Shown here piece after piece: positions 457 through 9,629 of a DNA stretch of 9,629 nt. The stretch spans positions 1 through 9,629 of the forward strand of contig JAJHRJ010000013.1 in assembly GCA_020832865.1 (NCBI GenBank), given 5' to 3'. The DNA comes from Desulfurococcaceae archaeon. Its GTDB lineage: Archaea > Thermoproteota > Thermoprotei_A > Sulfolobales > Desulfurococcaceae. How positions within the stretch are numbered: the stretch's first letter is position 1; the number at the start of each line of letters is the position of its first letter. The notes beneath the pieces are model-generated. The model had not been told where the DNA came from and ran no database searches. It worked only from the letters and a program-made list of their open reading frames with translations. The position numbers and the translations under genes were made by a program.

Positions 457-1224
457 CTAGTGTGAATTCCTCATCTTCCATGTAACTAATTTATGCACCA
501 TAAATGAAATGTATTTTCTACTTTGCTGTATTAAGTCTTGTAATGCTCTCTTAATGTTATCTGGTATTAGTCCTATAAAGATGCTCTTTATTCCCGCTCT
601 TATAACCATATGTAGTTCTTCAACATTAGGCTCTCTGCTACCTAGTTCTATTATTATGAATCCGTCATCAAGCGCTGTCTTTTTGGCATTTTCTTCTATA
701 CTCTTTGCTACTAGGATCTTTAGATGTGGTTTTATGGGTAGTTGTTTAATTTTTGCTTGTTCAGAGTTAACGTCGTCTACGCTCATAGAGGAATTCCATT
801 TCTCACACGACACGTATGCCCTGAACTCGAATTTATTAATCTCCTTAGTAGCCCATACGTCAATCACGACAGTACTGTCTCCAATAGGGAACTTCTTGTC
901 AATTTCGGCTTTAAAGCCTAGATCAGATAGCACAGAGGCTACAATATGCTTGAGAATTCTACTATACATATCTCTATAGGGGGCAGGGACAACTACGTGA
1001 TAACCCTCTTCTTTAGTTCCTGGAATGACTAATACTAGAAAACCGGTCTTTAGTGCTTCACCAATAACATTTATTGCCATTTTGTCTTCCGGCTTAAACG
1101 GGCTCAACCAGATTTTAAATGATCCTTTTCTAGTCTTATAACTACATACTCTCTCTAGTTTTATAAATGCCTTGATGTACTTCTCGACACTGCTGAAGTC
1201 TGTGCTTTTTATAAATGTGTACAA
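457..1224 (-). CDS. PD-(D/E)XK-fold (restriction-endonuclease-like) protein, probably 5'-broken
   Basis: From the TTG at 1224 this is 255 residues. Residues about 83-196 follow the PD-(D/E)XK order: a helix before a Gly-Phe turn (SVLSDLGF), a strand ending in Asp122 (TVVIDVWA), a strand with YVSCEKW (137-143), a helix, a strand (LKILVAKS), a helix (ENAKKTALDDG) and a strand (FIIIELG). In Mrr-like nucleases the central strand usually reads V-E-C-K-x-W. Aligned on the Cys and Trp, this protein has Ser139 in place of Glu and Glu141 in place of Lys, so it may be inactive or use a shifted site. The TTG start is doubtful. No Shine-Dalgarno sequence precedes it, and the same frame stays protein-like and helical back to about 1390 (for example AIRLLYELEEYIGEIKRN, EKIEEEHYHSF) with no ATG, GTG or TTG before the stop at 1465-1467. 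The real product probably begins in another frame near 1523-1547 and would be about 355 residues. It lies downstream of the helicase on the same strand and may be a further component of that operon. Confidence 0.65.
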   Translation of the reverse strand: MYTFIKSTDFSSVEKYIKAFIKLERVCSYKTRKGSFKIWLSPFKPEDKMAINVIGEALKTGFLVLVIPGTKEEGYHVVVPAPYRDMYSRILKHIVASVLSDLGFKAEIDKKFPIGDSTVVIDVWATKEINKFEFRAYVSCEKWNSSMSVDDVNSEQAKIKQLPIKPHLKILVAKSIEENAKKTALDDGFIIIELGSREPNVEELHMVIRAGIKSIFIGLIPDNIKRALQDLIQQSRKYISFMVHKLVTWKMRNSH

Positions 1225-1697: not shown

Positions 1698-4600
1698 CTA
1701 CGCAAATATTATTCTCGCTCTTTTCTCTTCACGCGTGGTTATTAATATTCTCTTTGGTAGCTCTGCATATACTCCACAGATCGCGGTCCACGTCGCTGGG
1801 TTTTTGTCTTCTAAGCCCATTACATTGCACACCACGTAGTTGTATGGATTAGCCTCTGCGAATCTAGTCTCAGAGTCTGTTAACTCGGCTACCAGGATTT
1901 TCTTTAAATGGCTCTTAACCTCTACGTAGAGCTTCACGGGCCCTTCTCTACCTGGGCACTCTACGAGTATATCGTACGGCTTTGTGACGCCGATATTCTT
2001 CTCAAGTATTCGGCAGCCCCTCTCCTCGTATAGTTTAGCCACGTAGTTTACGCTGACCTCCTCCATCCAGTCTCTAAGTTCCTCAGGCAAACTCTCTTTG
2101 AAGGCCTTATACTCGGAGAGCCCCTGAGCCCCCACAAGACTAACTACCGTCTCGCCTAATCTGTAATCCAGGGATCCTGTGAAGCCAGTAAACTCCCCTA
2201 TTATCTCTGAAAGCCTCTGCTCTCTGCTCCTAATCCAGTTGTTCACGTCTTGCTCTAGCCTCTTAACTAGCCTGGCTACTAAGTCTCTAAGTAGCACAGC
2301 CTCCCTTTGATCACCTAACTGACCATTAGCATATAGCACTCTGAGGGGTTTGTGTTCAACTAGCCACTCTAATACCTTAATCCCCCAGTATAGCCTAGAC
2401 TCGCCACGCTCTCTAATAGCGAGTACCGGCAGTGAATATCTCACTTTGCTATCAAGTAGGAGGTTTAATATCCCTAAATACCCCTCCTCTAAATCCGGGT
2501 CATCAACTACCAGTAATGTATTAGCCGGAGGCGTACTAGCATCTGAGAGCTTCTCGTAGAGCTCTCTAATAGCTTTAGCTACATCACTTATTTTCTCATT
2601 GAAAAAACTGTCTAGGACTTTACCCATGGCTTCCTCGAATTCTAAGTGACTAGAACACCCTGTAAAGTCCTCGATTACCTCTCTCAACAAGTCTACGTTA
2701 ACTCTCGACGCGAGTTCCTCTACCAAGTCTCTATATTTCCTGAGCTTCTCGAGCAACTCTCTATAGGCCCTCTCTAGGACGATATCAATGGATTCTCCCT
2801 CGACATAGTACTTCTCGTAAAGCTCAGCGAGAGCCAAGCCTATGCTCTTCTCCGATATAACTAGGTACTCACCACCTGGTTCTCTACGCGTCAAGTAGAG
2901 TTCTAATATTCCTTCTATAGGTCTAGAGACTAGCTTCTGATCGACTATATTTAAGAGTTTATGTACTAGCCTAGTGTAGAAGTCGTATTCAACTCGAGTA
3001 TCCCGTACGAAGTCTACTATGACACAATTTCTTCTCTGGCGTAGTCGATATACTCGCCCAATTCGCTGATCCCTCCTAATAGGGCTCCATGTGACGTCAT
3101 AATTTATTACTACGTTGAACTCCTGTAAGTTGAGGCCCTCGGAGGCGACGTCGGTAGAGACTAATATTTTTAATACTCTCTCGTTAATAGACTCTTCAAT
3201 CGCGTCAACGAGATCTGGCAATAAGTGTGCTATTTCTTGATTACTCGAGGAGAGCTTTGCCATGAGAACCACTATTCTGCTTCCACGTAAAATAGTGGTG
3301 GATGCATCGAGAAGACTTATACTCCTGCGTAGAGCCCTTGACGAGGTCTCCTCTTCAAGCTTCTTTATGAGGACCCTGATTACTTTATGCTTTAACTCGT
3401 CATCTACTATAAACCCCCTGCTAATTAAAAAGTCTGCGATTTTTTCATATAAGTACTCTACAGTATCCCTGTATTCACTAAACACAATGTAGTCTCCATG
3501 TAGCTCTCGCGGTAATACACTGGGATTTGTAGTTGCGTAAAATAGTAAATGAGCAAGGGCTCTACACGCAGGGTCTCCTTTTTCGTATATCTCGGTAAAC
3601 TCGCTCAGCAACTTCAATGCTCTGTCACGTAAGTCCTGTGGAATAAGCTTTATAGATCTGGCGAGTGTAGCCTCCACTACTTTATCTGGGTCGCGTTCAA
3701 GTAAATAATCACTATAAGATATTCTAGGGTTTTCAAGCGATCTATTCTCGACTACTCTAGTAAAGGTTTTTAGAAACGCGTAGGGACTCGATAAAGCTCT
3801 CTTTAACATGATTACTTTGAGTAGAGTAGGTGCCCCGGGGTCTATAGACTTAAATAATAGTCCAAGAAATTCCCCTAGCTCCTCGTATAACCTCTTGTAC
3901 TCATCTAGCCTCACAAGTGCTAGAAACGTATGTAGCTTCGTGAAGACTTCTTTATTCTCAAGTAAATTAACGTGTTCTTTTAGCCTTCTATATACGACAT
4001 AGTCTGATACAGCCTCGTAGAATAATCTACGTTTATAAGGATTCTTCTCTAATTCCTTCGCGCTTTTCACTGCTTCTGGGATTAAGAGACCTATTCTATT
4101 AATTATGTCTTTATGGGTTCCACGCGAGGGAGTAGCTGATAGTAGAATTAAGTGCTTAGCTTTAGTGCATAGTGGAGCTATTCTCTCAGTTCGAAGAGAA
4201 GGACTACTCCTAGTAAAGCCTATGTGGTGTGCCTCGTCGACAATTATTAGATCCCAGTCCACACTAGACACGAAGTCATAATACGGTTTGAACCATCCAC
4301 GTGTATGTTTATCCGTACTGCCCCTCTTTACAAGATCCATGGGGGCCAATAGTACAAGTGGTTTATCATCTGCTAGGTGCTCTATTTCGGCCAGTAGAAA
4401 TTCAATGTTCTTTCGCGAAAGTTTCTTAACTACTCGGGGAGAGTAGAGTAAATCTCTAATCTCGTGGTAAAGCCACTGTCTTATAAGGCACCTCGGAGCA
4501 ATGATTAGAATTCTCTTCGCTTCTCCCACTGTTACTAAGTATTTCACTAGTCTAATAGCCTCAATAGTCTTCCCTAATCCGACTTCGTCCCCCACTAGGA

Positions 4601-4799
4601 TTCTAATACTCCTCCTAGGTATGGCGCTGACTACTAGTGCTAATTGATGTATGTAATTATAATATGGTTTACGAGGTACTTCAGGAGCGGGTGGAGACGA
4701 GAAGGGATTGTAGTATAATGTGAAAAATGGGTTGTACCTGAATAATGGGTCAAGTACGAGTTTTAAAATGCCCTTAAAGTCGCCTTGGTTCACCTGCAT
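1698..4799 (-). CDS. SNF2-like DEAH-box helicase with C-terminal DUF3883/Mrr-like nuclease domain
   Basis: This is a predicted ATP-dependent superfamily-2 DNA helicase or translocase. The motor is complete. It has a Q-motif-like NYIHQLALVV (48-57), Walker A GDEVGLGKT (70-78), DEAH box VDEAHH (187-192), motif III SATP (221-224), motif IV IVFSEYRDT (438-446), motif V STDVASEGLNLQ (548-559) and motif VI RRDQRIGRVYR (575-585). About 100 residues separate motifs IV and V, longer than the minimal fold. A helical middle region (about 640-915) leads to a C-terminal domain (918-1033) with the PD-(D/E)XK signature PYDILVE (Asp943) and YVEVKSH (Glu960, Lys962), resembling DUF3883/Mrr-type domains. The ATG start overlaps the end of the 147-residue gene by 10 nt and has AGAGGA at 4808-4813, 8 nt upstream. 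Family knowledge says such helicases accompany DNA-modification and defence genes; the joint helicase-nuclease role here is inferred. The C-terminus may be affected by a frameshift near 1721-1724. Confidence 0.85.
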   Translation of the reverse strand: MQVNQGDFKGILKLVLDPLFRYNPFFTLYYNPFSSPPAPEVPRKPYYNYIHQLALVVSAIPRRSIRILVGDEVGLGKTIEAIRLVKYLVTVGEAKRILIIAPRCLIRQWLYHEIRDLLYSPRVVKKLSRKNIEFLLAEIEHLADDKPLVLLAPMDLVKRGSTDKHTRGWFKPYYDFVSSVDWDLIIVDEAHHIGFTRSSPSLRTERIAPLCTKAKHLILLSATPSRGTHKDIINRIGLLIPEAVKSAKELEKNPYKRRLFYEAVSDYVVYRRLKEHVNLLENKEVFTKLHTFLALVRLDEYKRLYEELGEFLGLLFKSIDPGAPTLLKVIMLKRALSSPYAFLKTFTRVVENRSLENPRISYSDYLLERDPDKVVEATLARSIKLIPQDLRDRALKLLSEFTEIYEKGDPACRALAHLLFYATTNPSVLPRELHGDYIVFSEYRDTVEYLYEKIADFLISRGFIVDDELKHKVIRVLIKKLEEETSSRALRRSISLLDASTTILRGSRIVVLMAKLSSSNQEIAHLLPDLVDAIEESINERVLKILVSTDVASEGLNLQEFNVVINYDVTWSPIRRDQRIGRVYRLRQRRNCVIVDFVRDTRVEYDFYTRLVHKLLNIVDQKLVSRPIEGILELYLTRREPGGEYLVISEKSIGLALAELYEKYYVEGESIDIVLERAYRELLEKLRKYRDLVEELASRVNVDLLREVIEDFTGCSSHLEFEEAMGKVLDSFFNEKISDVAKAIRELYEKLSDASTPPANTLLVVDDPDLEEGYLGILNLLLDSKVRYSLPVLAIRERGESRLYWGIKVLEWLVEHKPLRVLYANGQLGDQREAVLLRDLVARLVKRLEQDVNNWIRSREQRLSEIIGEFTGFTGSLDYRLGETVVSLVGAQGLSEYKAFKESLPEELRDWMEEVSVNYVAKLYEERGCRILEKNIGVTKPYDILVECPGREGPVKLYVEVKSHLKKILVAELTDSETRFAEANPYNYVVCNVMGLEDKNPATWTAICGVYAELPKRILITTREEKRARIIFA

Positions 4800-5233
4800 A
4801 GACAGTATCCTCTTAATAGAGAAGAAAACCTCTTGGGGTCGGTTATCTTCATGAGTTCCAAGAGTATGTCAATAATGGGGCTAATGGCGTCTATTCTACT
4901 CCAGCACCTAGCTAGGCAATCCGCCCTTCTCGCGGATCTTATGTTAAGTACACTATTGATGTAGAATAAGTATAATTTGAAGTGGCGCTCTGCGTGCTCA
5001 CTAAATACTACTCGTATACTATTACCTCTTCTGCTTTCAACTTTTGCTAATTCTTGCTCTACTAGCGCTTGATTGTAGAGTATCCACTTCAACGCGTAGT
5101 CTGACTTCACCAGTCTCTTACCTTGGAAGATCAGTCTTCCAGAATCATAGCATCTAACTAAGTAGTAGGGCTTCTTGGCTCTCACTTGTTGAATAACTAC
5201 CTTGAGCTTCTTTATACTAGGCTTCTCGGTCAA
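4790..5233 (-). CDS. Small basic protein of unknown family, between the ATPase and helicase genes
   Basis: I do not recognise this 147-residue protein. The N-terminal half is strongly basic and probably strand-rich (KKLKVVIQQVRAKKPYYLVR, then RLIFQGKRLV). The C-terminal half looks helical (ERHFKLYLFYINSVLNIR, ISPIIDILLELMKI) and ends in a Cys-containing tail (Cys144, Cys146). Four cysteines sit at 106, 110, 144 and 146, but without a clear zinc-ribbon pattern. There is no signal peptide or membrane segment. The start is TTG, supported by a very strong Shine-Dalgarno sequence. The gene begins 20 bp after the ATPase stop and its end overlaps the helicase start by 10 nt, so it is co-translated with both. 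The basic character and position suggest a nucleic-acid-binding or bridging subunit for the helicase or ATPase; this is inference. Its length, intact frame and initiation signal make it a convincing gene. Confidence 0.8.
   Translation of the reverse strand: MTEKPSIKKLKVVIQQVRAKKPYYLVRCYDSGRLIFQGKRLVKSDYALKWILYNQALVEQELAKVESRRGNSIRVVFSEHAERHFKLYLFYINSVLNIRSARRADCLARCWSRIDAISPIIDILLELMKITDPKRFSSLLRGYCLCR
4808..4813 (-). promoter_or_regulatory. Ribosome binding site of the helicase gene (AGAGGA)
   Basis: AGAGGA on the minus strand lies 8 nt before the ATG at 4799, inside the coding sequence of the preceding 147-residue gene. It supports this start and implies that termination of the upstream gene and initiation of the helicase occur at the same place. 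Confidence 0.6.
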
Positions 5234-5238
5234 GCAAT

Positions 5239-5247
5239 ACCTCCTCT
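5239..5247 (-). promoter_or_regulatory. Strong Shine-Dalgarno sequence that fixes a TTG start (AGAGGAGGT)
   Basis: AGAGGAGGT on the minus strand sits 5 nt before the TTG at 5233, in the 20-bp gap after the ATPase stop codon. It is the strongest ribosome binding site in the window and is what decides the unusual TTG initiation of the 147-residue gene. Confidence 0.75.
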
Positions 5248-5253
5248 TAAACT

Positions 5254-8200
5254 CTAGATCTTTTTACACTCCATAATAACCGCTACAACTAGTGGTGCGA
5301 GTGGGTTTCCAAGTAGTCTCTCTCTAGCCAAACGTGCATAGCTCAATGTGTTGACTGTTAAATTAGTAAATTCTAGATTTACATCTAGGTCCTCTTCTAC
5401 GCCTAGAGACGCTATGATCTTAGCGATCTTTGAAGCACTAGTATTTCTAAATGCTGCTTCTACATACTCTCCACTACTAGTCTTTTGTACTACACTTCCA
5501 GTAACCACGACTTTTAGTCTCGCTAAGTCCTCTAAAACCTCTCTCAAGTGGGATATGGCGTATCTCACTACTTTACCTCTAAGTGCCACAGACTTAATCT
5601 CTACTCTCACACCTTCTTGTATTACCTCAAGCCTTTTAGCTAAATCAATTCCACTTATGTGCACATCTCTACAGAGTTCTCCCCTCACTCGTACTCGGGC
5701 TACGTGTAGCTCCGGAGATCTGTAACCCTGGGGTTCATATCCAGATACAAAGACATTAAATTCCCCAACTCTCTCAATTGGTAATTGTAGTTGAAAGTCT
5801 CCAGGAATTCTCACTTTATCTTCTACTCTAGCAACAACCCTACCTTCTTCATCTAGCGCTTTAACCTCGACTACTATCTGGAACTTCTCCTCGGACTCAA
5901 CAGCTCCTTTAAGGGTTAAAGTGAACGATTTATCTGCTTCTATGCTAATTGGTGTTTCACTGTACGTAACACCATTAACACTCACTACTCTAATGTTGAA
6001 TGTTCTTGGCGGAGTCTCTTCGACAAGTACGATTGGGTACTTCGATAACGCCTCTATAAGCTCTTTTGTACTCTTATACTTGGCCATGAACACTTCGAAG
6101 TCTTGGTTTCCATCTGGTAAGTAGACCATTAATTTTCTAACTACTCTTTCGCCTGGTTTAACCATGGTCTTTTTCTTCAATTTCTCAATGTATTCGTCTA
6201 TGATGTAATTTGGTGAGATTACCTCTACGTCTGCGAGTTTAACTCCTAGTAGACTCAGCTTCCTTTCGACATCTCCATCCCAGTTATTTAACCTACCCTC
6301 TCTGCTAAATCTAGTTTTATAGTACTGTGAAGCTACTTCTGCGGAGTAGGGATGATCTAACCAGAAAATATAGTCTCCATACCTGAACGCTACATCATTA
6401 TTTAAGTAAGCATTCTTGAGCATTTCTTTAAAGTCACTAAAGCTCGTTAAATGTGGTTTAACAGCATTTGAAGTCAATATCTGCTCCCACAATCCCTTAA
6501 CACTAATCGGTTTCTTTATTGATCTATCCAGCGGATCCCATAACTCACTCATATGTTTCAATTGATTGTATAGATCTTGCCAAGTCCACAAAGTCGGCAC
6601 TCCACGCTTCTCGAGTGTATCCTCGAGTAGCCTTGTAAGGCTAGATAGATCTCTGATCTCCTCTTCTTCTATTGGCTTTAGTTCAATACTATATTTCGCC
6701 TTCTGTCTGCCCATTATAACTGTTTTGAGAGAAAAGTATATCGTGGTCACTATCTGCTTTTCAGCGTCATCTTTGATCTTTTTAAGCCTCGATATTATAA
6801 ACTCGAAGAATTCATCGCCGAATTCGCTGCGAAGCAGCTCTTTGCTAGTATATATCTCGTTGACGACTTTATACAGTTTAAGTAAGTTCTTCAAGTACTC
6901 TAAGAGAGTTTGCGGTTCCGAGCCTGTGATGCGCTTTAAGCTCTCGGAGTACACTAGTCCGAGGTCTCTTGGATTAATATTGTAGTCTGGCAATAGGAGT
7001 ACTACATTATTCCTAGTGAGCACTACATCCTCGAGGTCTCTAGGTGGTTCTGATAACCCCAAATACACAAATAAAACTGGGTCTTGAGTTGACGCTAGCA
7101 CCTCTCTTAATTGGCTCTCAATTTCACTTAGTTTACTCGTAACTATAGGGATTACTTGTTTAATTTTACGCCCAGGCCTAAATACACTAGCATGGGCAAA
7201 CCTCCGCTCCAGTGTAGTTAATGCGTCGAGGTCTGTAGCTGAGAGATATCTCTCCCTCAAGAACTTCTCGATGTCAGGTACTAACGCGTAGAATAGTCTA
7301 CCCTCCATTTCCGTCATGTACGTTGAGGCGTCTTTTAACTCACTAATAGCGTTTAATACATCGGCGCAGGGTATATCGCGGAATACTAGTGGATCGTATA
7401 GTACCGCAGGGAGCTCATTGATTTCTGGATAAAGTTTGATCGAGGCCTTCATGCCTCGTCCTGGTATAGTGTAAAGCCATATGGTCTCGGCTAGAGCACC
7501 TTTTATAAAGTCCACTACGGCCTGTCTGGGTGCTGACTCCATAGCCCATATGTAGTTCTCGATTTTAGTAGCTTGTAGTTTAACGTCTTGCTCAAATATC
7601 CTCTGGAACTCGCTCTGGTTCTGTGTCGAGAGACCTCTTAGTAGCTCTGTCCTAAACTCTACTCTCTCAAGTGGTATAAGCCAAGGAGTAATTAGTGCTA
7701 TTGGAGGGTCTCTACCACGCCTCTGCTTAGATTCGTAAATGTACCTAATGAGTCTTGCTACATAGGCTAGTAAATACCTCGTAGTGCCTAATCCTGGAAT
7801 AGTACTAGCAATGTTCACTAATACCTCTATAAAAGCTGGATGGAACGGGTAATAGTCTCCAGTGCTCCTAGTGAAGCCTGCTATATCGCCATACTTTGCC
7901 TTAACCGACTTGGCGAGTGTAGAGTCCCGTGAGGTCTTGCTCTCCACTTCACGCTTAACGAGTCTAGCGTTTTCAACTACTTCTATCGAGTAGGCGTTTT
8001 CAAATAACCTCTTCTTAAAAACCTCGATTACATCCCTCCTCTCTAATGGGGGAATATACTCGTGTGAAACTCTAGTCAACATACTATTTATTTTATCAAC
8101 ATACTCCGGCTTCTGTATACCGGGTACTAGTCTACCCTCTATATACTCTGCTGGGAGAGTTGCTACAAGGACGGCGCCAGGCGTTTCACTAACAGCCTCT

Positions 8201-9000
8201 GCGAGGTTTCTAATAAACGAGAGGTATGATTCTGCATAATCTTTATACGTAGAGCTTATTCTAACAGCTAATTCCATGTATTCTACTGCTTCATCGAGTA
8301 GTATTAATACGCTCTTGTTGTGAAGAATCTTCACTAACTCATCTACTCGTGGTGCGTAGAAAGACTTGTCACTAGCCTCTAATTCCTGATATGCACCAAG
8401 TAGGTATGCTAGAAGACCCCATGGAGTGTAGATCTTGACACCCTTAATCTCCACTGGGTTATCCGGAGAGGGGGCTAGTTGCCTGGTATCGCCTACAATC
8501 GCTACAATACGTATCTCTCTATACTTATCTCTCACCAGGCTTAATGCGTGTCTCAATGCATACTTAACTCTCTCGTCGACACCAGTATACCTTAATACTT
8601 CTTCAATGCCCCTCTCATTAAATAACCTTGCTAAGTAGTAGAGTGTCGCTAAGAGGTGTGTCTTACCGCCACCCAGATGGCTTGGAATAATGTATACTCT
8701 AGAACTAATAGGCTGAGTACTCCCCCTCTCATCAAGATATACACTGGTTAACCCAGCGAGCCCCCCGAAGACCTTTATTATTACTTGCTTTATTGACTCA
8801 CTGAAGTGCGTTCTCTTCAAGAACTCCCTGGGATCGTAGAGTGAATTTGGCTTAAGTATTTGTGTAATAGGTATTTTGTCTCTAAGCTCGTTATAGATGT
8901 AGATATTTGCTAGGTTTACAGCTTCGACTATTTCACCCTCCAATACCTCGGGTCTAGGCCTCAATACACTTGTGAACGGTCTAGCGCTTGACGAAGTCAT
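5254..9000 (-). CDS. Large DUF499-family AAA+ P-loop ATPase
   Basis: This 1248-residue protein has the layout and length of the DUF499 ATPases. The Walker A motif is SHLGGGKT (107-114), where DUF499 members typically have a Gly-rich GGGKTH loop. Walker B is VLILLDEAVEY (231-241; Asp236, Glu237). A sensor-like strand follows (AVLVATLPAEY, 276-286). The family-typical segments IPPLERRDVIEVFKKRL (316-332), YPFHP (384-388) and TTRYLLAYVARLIR (406-419) come next. A long helical middle region leads to a strand-rich stretch at about 1001-1106, probably a beta-sandwich, and a final domain (1107-1248). The ATG is preceded by GGGTGA. The first 20 nt overlap the end of the methyltransferase gene. DUF499 proteins recur beside DUF1156 methyltransferases and helicases, and resemble in size and role the BREX ATPases BrxC/PglY. 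The protein probably couples ATP hydrolysis to assembly or DNA sensing by the system; that role is inferred. Confidence 0.85.
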   Translation of the reverse strand: MTSSSARPFTSVLRPRPEVLEGEIVEAVNLANIYIYNELRDKIPITQILKPNSLYDPREFLKRTHFSESIKQVIIKVFGGLAGLTSVYLDERGSTQPISSRVYIIPSHLGGGKTHLLATLYYLARLFNERGIEEVLRYTGVDERVKYALRHALSLVRDKYREIRIVAIVGDTRQLAPSPDNPVEIKGVKIYTPWGLLAYLLGAYQELEASDKSFYAPRVDELVKILHNKSVLILLDEAVEYMELAVRISSTYKDYAESYLSFIRNLAEAVSETPGAVLVATLPAEYIEGRLVPGIQKPEYVDKINSMLTRVSHEYIPPLERRDVIEVFKKRLFENAYSIEVVENARLVKREVESKTSRDSTLAKSVKAKYGDIAGFTRSTGDYYPFHPAFIEVLVNIASTIPGLGTTRYLLAYVARLIRYIYESKQRRGRDPPIALITPWLIPLERVEFRTELLRGLSTQNQSEFQRIFEQDVKLQATKIENYIWAMESAPRQAVVDFIKGALAETIWLYTIPGRGMKASIKLYPEINELPAVLYDPLVFRDIPCADVLNAISELKDASTYMTEMEGRLFYALVPDIEKFLRERYLSATDLDALTTLERRFAHASVFRPGRKIKQVIPIVTSKLSEIESQLREVLASTQDPVLFVYLGLSEPPRDLEDVVLTRNNVVLLLPDYNINPRDLGLVYSESLKRITGSEPQTLLEYLKNLLKLYKVVNEIYTSKELLRSEFGDEFFEFIISRLKKIKDDAEKQIVTTIYFSLKTVIMGRQKAKYSIELKPIEEEEIRDLSSLTRLLEDTLEKRGVPTLWTWQDLYNQLKHMSELWDPLDRSIKKPISVKGLWEQILTSNAVKPHLTSFSDFKEMLKNAYLNNDVAFRYGDYIFWLDHPYSAEVASQYYKTRFSREGRLNNWDGDVERKLSLLGVKLADVEVISPNYIIDEYIEKLKKKTMVKPGERVVRKLMVYLPDGNQDFEVFMAKYKSTKELIEALSKYPIVLVEETPPRTFNIRVVSVNGVTYSETPISIEADKSFTLTLKGAVESEEKFQIVVEVKALDEEGRVVARVEDKVRIPGDFQLQLPIERVGEFNVFVSGYEPQGYRSPELHVARVRVRGELCRDVHISGIDLAKRLEVIQEGVRVEIKSVALRGKVVRYAISHLREVLEDLARLKVVVTGSVVQKTSSGEYVEAAFRNTSASKIAKIIASLGVEEDLDVNLEFTNLTVNTLSYARLARERLLGNPLAPLVVAVIMECKKI

Positions 9001-9629
9001 GTAGAGTCACCCTTCTACCTCTGGGAGCCTGTGAACCAAGGTACTCTAAGACACGGGATGCGAGCTCTGCCTCTGGATCCCCGGCCAGCGTGGTCAAAGC
9101 CTTAGCTAGCTCTACAGCCTCTACTAGTAACGGCGGATTTACCGAGTACACTTTCTCATAGTACTTTACGAATACATCTCTTGGTTTAAGAGCATACAGC
9201 ATTAACGCGTGGAGAGCGTGTACTGGGCTCTTAAATAATGCTGGGTTATCTGGGTTAACACCATGCATTCTGAGAACCTCGGCCAACTCAGCTTCATCAC
9301 TACTCTTCGTAGGCTCAATTAAAACATATGTTTTCCTACTAGCAACCTCAGTCTCCTCCTCTCTGCCATAAATTCTTAACACACCCCTTCTCACCAGGTC
9401 ATCTAGTACTTTCTCTTTCTGAACTCCGAGACCATAACTTAGTAGTATTAAGTCGCTACTACTAGCTAGTCTACGACCCTCCTCACCGCGCGGAAACACT
9501 TTTTTAACAAGCAAGTAGAATATTGAGTCGCTATGAGTGAGCATGGCACCAGCCTCCTTCACATAAGCCCTCGCTAGTACCTCAGAGGCCAATCTAGTGA
9601 TTTCCTCAGAGCTCAGCTCTCTACCAGCC
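8981..9629 (-). CDS. C-terminal part of a DUF1156-type adenine-specific DNA methyltransferase (start outside window)
   Basis: The frame stays open to the window edge. The TTG at 9592 is an internal codon, because upstream residues such as AGRELSSEEITR continue the same helical sequence. About 215 residues are visible. They match my recollection of the C-terminal region of large DUF1156/COG1743 N6-adenine methyltransferases: a segment of the type SDSIFYLLVKKVFP, a helical block (LDDLVRRGVLRIYG), then the ALHALMLYALKPRDVFVKYY motif, a DPEAELASRVLEYLG segment and a short basic tail. The catalytic (D/N/S)PP(Y/F/W) and SAM-binding motifs lie in the missing part, so the assignment rests on these C-terminal features and on the DUF499 neighbour that such genes commonly have. 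Its stop lies 20 nt inside the ATPase gene, which indicates translational coupling. Its role would be modification of host DNA as the self mark. The ATPase assignment is firmer than this one. Confidence 0.65.
   Translation of the reverse strand, partial: AGRELSSEEITRLASEVLARAYVKEAGAMLTHSDSIFYLLVKKVFPRGEEGRRLASSSDLILLSYGLGVQKEKVLDDLVRRGVLRIYGREEETEVASRKTYVLIEPTKSSDEAELAEVLRMHGVNPDNPALFKSPVHALHALMLYALKPRDVFVKYYEKVYSVNPPLLVEAVELAKALTTLAGDPEAELASRVLEYLGSQAPRGRRVTLHDFVKR
9007..9012 (-). promoter_or_regulatory. Ribosome binding site of the DUF499 ATPase gene (GGGTGA)
   Basis: GGGTGA on the minus strand lies 6 nt before the ATG at 9000, within the 3' end of the methyltransferase coding sequence. 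It matches the GGTGA core typical of crenarchaeal anti-Shine-Dalgarno pairing and supports the chosen start. Confidence 0.7.

Follow-up and report, generated by a model that had tools for sequence, protein, structure and literature searches.

DUF499 proteins were noted together with SNF2-DUF3883 proteins in 2013 (PMC3710099), an archaeal operon of the composition COG1743-DUF499-SWI2/SNF2-nuclease was described in 2020 (PMC7641849), and the system was named Hma (helicase-methylase-ATPase) in 2021 (PMC8565338). The main text of PMC12839542 (Rakesh and Krishnan 2026) reports DUF499-centered BREX-related (BR) systems in 3592 taxa, 408 of them archaeal, and defines Type-1 BR by three genes for an ATPase, a methyltransferase and a helicase, with an active C-terminal PD-(D/E)XK nuclease in 79% of the Type-1 taxa; antiphage activity of an Hma helicase is mentioned there second-hand. 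The stretch of DNA analyzed here, contig JAJHRJ010000013.1 of a Desulfurococcaceae archaeon (assembly GCA_020832865.1; 9,629 nucleotides, hereafter the window), carries a tightly packed operon of four minus-strand open reading frames (ORFs) in the order methyltransferase-DUF499-small protein-helicase. With a DUF499 ATPase, a DUF1156-type methyltransferase (C-terminus only) and an SNF2 helicase in one operon, it belongs by sequence to the already described kind of DUF499-centered BR system, alias Hma. What appears to be new is the near-obligate small fourth component and the variation of the effectors among relatives. The original prediction, which had been made from the letters of the window and proposed a candidate archaeal defense system, was unaware that this kind had been described, i.e., for archaea in 2020, as Hma in 2021 and as BREX-related in 2026. 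The features of the operon are as follows.

8981..9628, minus strand: C-terminal part (215 aa) of a putative DUF1156-type N6-adenine methyltransferase, open at the contig end; assigned by identity to the methyltransferase of the related locus L001
5254..9000, minus strand: DUF499 AAA+ ATPase, 1248 aa (Pfam DUF499, E 6.7e-64; PADLOC HmaC, 1.4e-27)
8650..8676, minus strand: Walker A motif LGGGKTHLL of the DUF499 ATPase; GGGKTH is invariant in 15 aligned sequences, window included
8278..8307, minus strand: Walker B motif LILLDEAVEY of the DUF499 ATPase (alignment and translation)
4790..5233, minus strand: small protein of 147 aa with a TTG start, family S1, candidate adaptor subunit (listed relatives, gene position, structure model)
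4793..4918, minus strand: CxxxC...CxC segment at the C-terminal end of the small protein (C106, C110, C144, C146); an alignment of 18 S1 proteins shows no variation at these four Cys
1698..4799, minus strand: SNF2 helicase-nuclease, 1033 aa (ORF and Pfam)
4041..4601, minus strand: SNF2 N-terminal helicase domain, residues 67-253 (Pfam)
3042..3206, minus strand: Helicase_C match, residues 532-586 (Pfam)
1800..2063, minus strand: NOV_C PD-(D/E)XK nuclease domain, residues 913-1000, with putative catalytic D943, E960 and K962 (Pfam and alignment)

The four same-strand genes proposed in the original prediction were reproduced exactly, including their junctions, which are a 20-nt overlap between methyltransferase and DUF499, a 20-bp gap between DUF499 and the small gene and a 10-nt overlap between the small gene and the helicase. 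Since the contig end cuts through the methyltransferase gene, only a piece of it could be analyzed, for which Pfam gave nothing above cut-off and PADLOC a weak MTase_II match (3.9e-5). Its proposed nature, the C-terminus of a DUF1156-like methyltransferase, was borne out by the relatives: it shares 76% of 214 aligned residues with the C-terminus of the 968-aa methyltransferase of L001, itself open at the 5' end, it is 73% identical to that of L037, and its 215 residues are 63-76% identical to the C-termini of four proteins from related loci (968 [5'-open] to 1031 aa). DUF1156 is present in all three relatives' methyltransferases scanned (L037, L038, L041), and DPPY plus two CxxC pairs occur in all six that were checked. 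The giant P-loop ATPase is, as proposed, a DUF499 protein with Walker A and Walker B motifs. Its 26 closest relatives among the matches listed are 39-98% identical, the named ones originating from Thermosphaera, Thermogladius and other Thermoprotei; a comparison of the DUF499 profile with PDB sequences returned a single chance-level match (E 0.49).

The helicase was likewise recognized correctly as an SNF2-like protein with a PD-(D/E)XK tail. Pfam matches cover SNF2 (3.5e-16), Helicase_C (1.1e-15) and NOV_C (8.2e-8), and partial PADLOC matches were obtained for BrxHI/II (4.8e-45), DrmD (2.8e-38) and HmaA. The ResIII/SNF2 match begins at residue 62/67 and is preceded in the structure model by predicted helices at 9-27 and 50-59; a PLDc domain was not matched in Pfam at E up to 1. 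Housekeeping families were considered for the large proteins and rejected, as only DUF499, general helicase and NOV_C domains came out above cut-off in Pfam, PADLOC and NCBIfam; the NCBIfam matches were all below cut-off, the partial ones including motor domains of RapA and other helicases. The original prediction had turned on this point and on whether the four genes stay together elsewhere, and homologs of all four are indeed co-localized in the relatives' loci.

These relatives were compared in 56 neighborhood rows, which represent 55 distinct places because one row repeats a place; L040 (a repeat of L003), L060, L064 and L068 (contig ending in or after DUF499) as well as L074 and L119 to L125 (other arrangement) were dropped before counting. 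Of the 54 rows with both a methyltransferase and a DUF499 gene, 49 show the two co-directional and -104 to +46 nt apart; the methyltransferase is divergent from DUF499 in five rows (L047, L061, L062, L063 and L064). Next after DUF499 comes a small ORF, 131-207 aa long in the 50 cases measured. It is present at 51 of the 52 readable places, 50 known from ORF tabulation and one, L061, which the ORF picker missed and which was read by eye in three-frame translation. The gap between DUF499 and the small gene is -104 to +65 nt in 49 of the 50 measured cases. In L070, L071 and L073, extra methyltransferase-like ORFs, several of them partial, lie upstream in the opposite direction, and a 207-aa protein at L155:9963-10583, located between DUF1156 and the helicase, has no Pfam match up to E 0.1.

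The operon is patchily distributed: at E 1e-20, the DUF499 profile (15 sequences) had matches in 43 of 229 genomes from the class to which L001 belongs. Profiles of the two small-protein families defined below, S1 and S2, matched 9 and 32 of the 226 class genomes searched, 39 together. A DUF499 match is present in 37 of these 39 genomes versus the 43 of 229 overall, a count that mainly measures the rarity of the small protein elsewhere because the profiles were built from DUF499 loci. Six DUF499 genomes have no match to a small-protein profile, and two loci of these (L048, L067) still have a small ORF in place. Among genome contigs, relatives were found by the alignment scan (four distinct loci) and none by the single-protein scan; viral contigs contained none. 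In trees of DUF499, methyltransferase and helicase (46, 41 and 38 sequences; supports 0.987, 0.82 and 0.887; midpoint root arbitrary), the four-gene loci of Thermoproteota group together in a single clade, separate from the DUF7680 examples and from the bacterial NOV_C loci.

The small ORF of the window is a real gene, as seen from its relatives, its invariant cysteines, its structure model, its position and the ribosome-binding-like stretch AGGAGGT that precedes it. The small basic protein of the original prediction, 147 aa long, has a computed pI of 10.0. Among the matches listed (E up to 7e-38) are 27 S1 proteins, headed by the window's own cluster, and 17 aligned S1 relatives are 48-78% identical. 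The four cysteines that are invariant in S1 are not all retained in L049, L004 or S2. The model of S1 (mean predicted local distance difference test score, pLDDT, of 91) predicts a beta-alpha-alpha-beta-beta-alpha core, for which Foldseek and VIA-align gave weak matches only, KH-like domains among them; PDB sequences gave nothing below E 0.06. No Pfam family matched the window protein above cut-off, DUF3780 included; DUF3780 was also unmatched in the 226 class genomes, but its profile matched no control either.

Pairwise searches divided the small ORFs into S1 (the window and eight others), S2 (28, later 40 members) and L048, which stands alone, so that the 51 places comprise nine S1 and 40 S2 genes, L048 and L061. 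A counterpart exists in plasmid-borne systems of Haloferax and Aminobacter, where the gene after DUF499 encodes Pfam DUF7680 (3.8e-38 and 3.9e-44); the two plasmid-system small proteins scanned match DUF7680, not DUF3780. Four small proteins of other Thermoproteota loci match DUF7680 below cut-off (0.0007-0.019). An hhalign comparison of S2 with DUF7680 (PF24728) scored 94.7% and 91.7% (E 6e-8 and 8e-7), whereas reversed alignments reached at most 0.3% and 24 unrelated slices at most 1.6%; judged by these profile alignments, S2 is homologous to DUF7680. Of 11 plasmid loci with a relative of DUF7680 (two Pfam-confirmed, nine found by tblastn), 10 have DUF499 upstream, no more than one gene away. 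The name DUF7680 was not found in the literature searched, nor in the main text of PMC12839542. A further S2-like stretch with three in-frame stops lies at G109:C87:13218-13619; the genome concerned carries an S1 operon as well.

The effector end of the operon varies. A NOV_C tail is present on 39 of 44 full-length helicases and missing from five (L069-L073), as scored with a custom profile seeded from the window's relatives and with Pfam for a few only. All 43 aligned rows, which include one repeat and three outgroup loci, retain the D, E and K of NOV_C; the PD-(D/E)XK nuclease tail is thus intact by motif, with catalysis predicted. An RNase J-like metallo-beta-lactamase family is represented by 20 full-length genes 3' of the helicase, all with HxHLDH; the single copy tested matched RNase J at 3.9e-9. 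The genes are offset from the helicase by -23 to +65 nt in 19 cases and by 133 nt in L050; excluded from this count were a 473-aa match in L124 (309 bits, outgroup, other strand), a second match in L107 (42 bits) and fragments in L051 and L067. Each of the five tailless loci (L069-L073) has an RNase J-like gene with intact HxHLDH, a type of gene that the window does not contain.

In two further loci, an SNF2 helicase was not found in the stretch examined, and an AAA_5 ATPase occupies the helicase position (1.5e-16 in L045, 9.9e-15 in L056):

L045:3260-6712: McrB-like replacement, methyltransferase-DUF499-small protein kept
L056:3868-7256: McrB-like replacement, methyltransferase-DUF499-small protein kept

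The L045 ATPase resembles McrB (PDB 6n0s, 7.7e-39; McrB, 1.4e-6), and the gene after it has weak, just-below-cut-off PD-(D/E)XK matches (0.023), with none from the PDB. There are only two such loci, and they are alike. The predicted effectors are therefore of the types SNF2 with NOV_C, tailless SNF2 with an RNase J-like nuclease, and McrB-like ATPase with a PD-(D/E)XK-like protein. Because the small gene is retained in L045 and L056 despite the swap of the helicase, it is tied to DUF499 and not to one effector, and methyltransferase, DUF499 and small protein appear to make up an invariant core for modification and sensing that accepts different effectors.

Overall, the operon is probably a restriction-modification-like defense system, a BR/Hma variant with four genes that occurs in hyperthermophilic Thermoproteota. 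Both the defense activity and an adaptor role of the small protein are what we infer for it. The methyltransferase would mark host DNA as self, and the DUF499 ATPase would load on DNA and read its methylation state. The small protein may act as the adaptor that couples this ATPase to the effector, so that on unmarked DNA the SNF2 motor would be engaged and the NOV_C nuclease would cut or degrade. By analogy, such ATPases have a precedent for small partners in the text of PMC13326643, where both BrxB and BrxA bind BrxC, the former as a bridge to PglZ and the latter as an inhibitor of DNA binding by BrxC.

Several observations weigh against this interpretation and leave room for others. Gene position and co-occurrence are what points to the adaptor role, and the literature consulted on these systems yielded no functional test of an archaeal member. 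In L113 there is no small gene, and 73 bp separate ATPase and helicase; the small gene is therefore not strictly required. In the two bacterial NOV_C examples scanned (L127 of Rhodococcus and L131 of Methylomonas), the three core genes likewise have no small gene among them. When 31 loci were compared pairwise, the small protein showed the lowest identity of the four proteins in 414 of 465 pairs. The methyltransferase, in turn, has the highest mean identity in every bin above 30% methyltransferase identity, the bins being set by that same identity and values of 15-20% hardly exceeding those of unrelated sequences. Such data would fit an ordinary Type-1 BR/Hma system of three components, to which the small gene would be only loosely attached as an accessory, e.g., an anti-anti-defense or toxin-like passenger, and would not encode a subunit. 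This is improbable given the small ORF between DUF499 and effector at 51 of the 52 places, its narrow spacing from DUF499, its persistence when the effector changes and the recurrence of a DUF7680 relative behind DUF499 on plasmids. It is possible, although we lean away from it, that the small protein is no structural adaptor and serves as a reader of modified DNA or of RNA. The KH-like domains among its weak fold matches would suit nucleic acid binding, and the main text of PMC12839542 proposes reading of modified DNA or RNA for a TUDOR domain or DUF3780 in other BR types; the BrxB and BrxA precedents speak for a protein-bound partner.

The unity of the small component is also open to doubt. 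S1 and S2 scored 4, 9 or 23% in hhalign depending on the members included, and the addition of L048 to S1 lowered the value from 23% to 9%. Controls gave at most 0.8% for reversed alignments and at most 0.5% for slices, and the reversed self-comparison of S1 reached 2.9-5.1%. When S2 was pooled with DUF7680 and related sequences, the signal was lost (0.1-0.2%), and the direct comparison of S1 with DUF7680 gave no link (0.0-0.1%). The relation of S1 to S2 is accordingly weak, alignment-dependent and only suggestive. The flanks do not establish an association with other defense genes: no PADLOC family matched more than 2 of 118 proteins (23 loci), AriA and Csx1 being among the families, and no Pfam family more than 4 of 118, many of the first 25 families shown being metabolic; these are raw counts without a background rate, and the 118 proteins include those of L045 and L056 that are otherwise counted as effectors. 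Together with the SNF2/RapA-like motor, the metabolic neighbors could indicate a chromosomal machine for DNA repair or replication restart, composed of an SNF2 motor, a nuclease and an ORC-like ATPase. We regard this as very improbable, considering the patchy distribution, the dedicated DNA methyltransferase, the plasmid-borne homologs in bacteria and haloarchaea and the exchangeable nucleases.

A last complication comes from two loci that hold an S2 protein without DUF499:

L160:2879-3280: S2-family small protein without DUF499
L161:10137-10529: S2-family small protein without DUF499

In both, the S2 protein sits between a coiled-coil-like protein and a helicase, which is YprA-like in L161 (1.4e-14) and a short piece in L160. 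Upstream of the S2 protein, another protein has an apparent Walker A motif, APYGSGK[ST], that was read by eye and missed by the automated pattern; PDB searches for it were negative. These loci possibly represent an undescribed system. There may be not quite an even chance that methyltransferase, DUF499 and a DUF7680-like adaptor form a general effector chassis and that the same small family couples another ATPase to a YprA-like helicase in L160 and L161. If so, the adaptor would define the Thermoproteota lineage as a BR subtype of its own. BREX-like systems are widespread, and a small protein that stays with the ATPase while the nuclease changes would offer a direct experimental handle on the crosstalk among marking enzyme, ATPase and nuclease.

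Downstream of the operon, on the same strand, the window encodes a 255-aa protein (457-1224, minus strand) with a weak, below-cut-off Mrr_cat match (0.019). It was considered as a fifth component and left out of the operon because it has no relative among the ORFs of the compared loci.

With respect to the known systems, BREX Type 3 and DISARM class 1 share with the window a methyltransferase, a large ATPase and an SNF2 helicase, as reflected in the BrxHI/II and DrmD matches, but PglZ and MZB were not found inside the relatives' operons. MZB (PF09369; MZB/DUF1998) is the domain that we take to be DrmB of DISARM. PglZ (PF08665) was matched weakly in 5 of 23 relatives' genomes, always outside the operons and at its nearest about 23 kb away (G219); MZB was matched in 17 of the 23, in 16 of them far from the operon or on another contig. 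The remaining MZB match, below cut-off, is at G125:C3:105175-105312 in a frame of 751 aa, some 2.3 kb from the operon that L041 represents. On the relatives' operons, canonical BREX and DISARM were rejected, and as far as tested there, the window's own right flank lying beyond the contig end, the operon is neither, just as the original prediction had held.

Closer are the systems with DUF499. The operon of PMC7641849 follows the same archaeal logic with a PD-(D/E)XK or PLDc nuclease, but the available text stresses an EVE partner and does not name the small protein. Hma, as presented in PMC8565338, has the same three functions, and the PADLOC models HmaC and HmaA match the window proteins, but it consists of three genes, a small component not being mentioned in the accessible part of that paper. 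Type-2 BR resembles the window in that a small protein adjoins DUF499 in the plasmid examples; it differs by a PLD/HKD domain at the helicase N-terminus according to PMC12839542, where the window has NOV_C and an SNF2 match from about residue 62-67. Weak, below-cut-off PLDc_2 matches were seen in 4 of 4 helicases scanned, and the small component given as DUF3780 in the main text of PMC12839542 is DUF7680 in the two plasmid proteins scanned here. Type-1 BR of the same source agrees with the window in composition, with DUF499, a DUF1156 N6-methyltransferase with CxxC pairs, an SNF2 helicase with C-terminal PD-(D/E)XK and PglZ unseen. Its helicase is described there with an N-terminal TUDOR domain, for which the start of SNF2 at residue 62-67 leaves little room in the window, where no TUDOR-directed search was made. 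The bacterial loci L127 and L131 are ordered helicase-methyltransferase-DUF499, in contrast to methyltransferase-DUF499-small protein-helicase in the window. Unlike Type-1 BR as described, the window has a small gene between DUF499 and helicase, which suggests that for these archaea the definitions of Hma and Type-1 BR by three genes are one component short.

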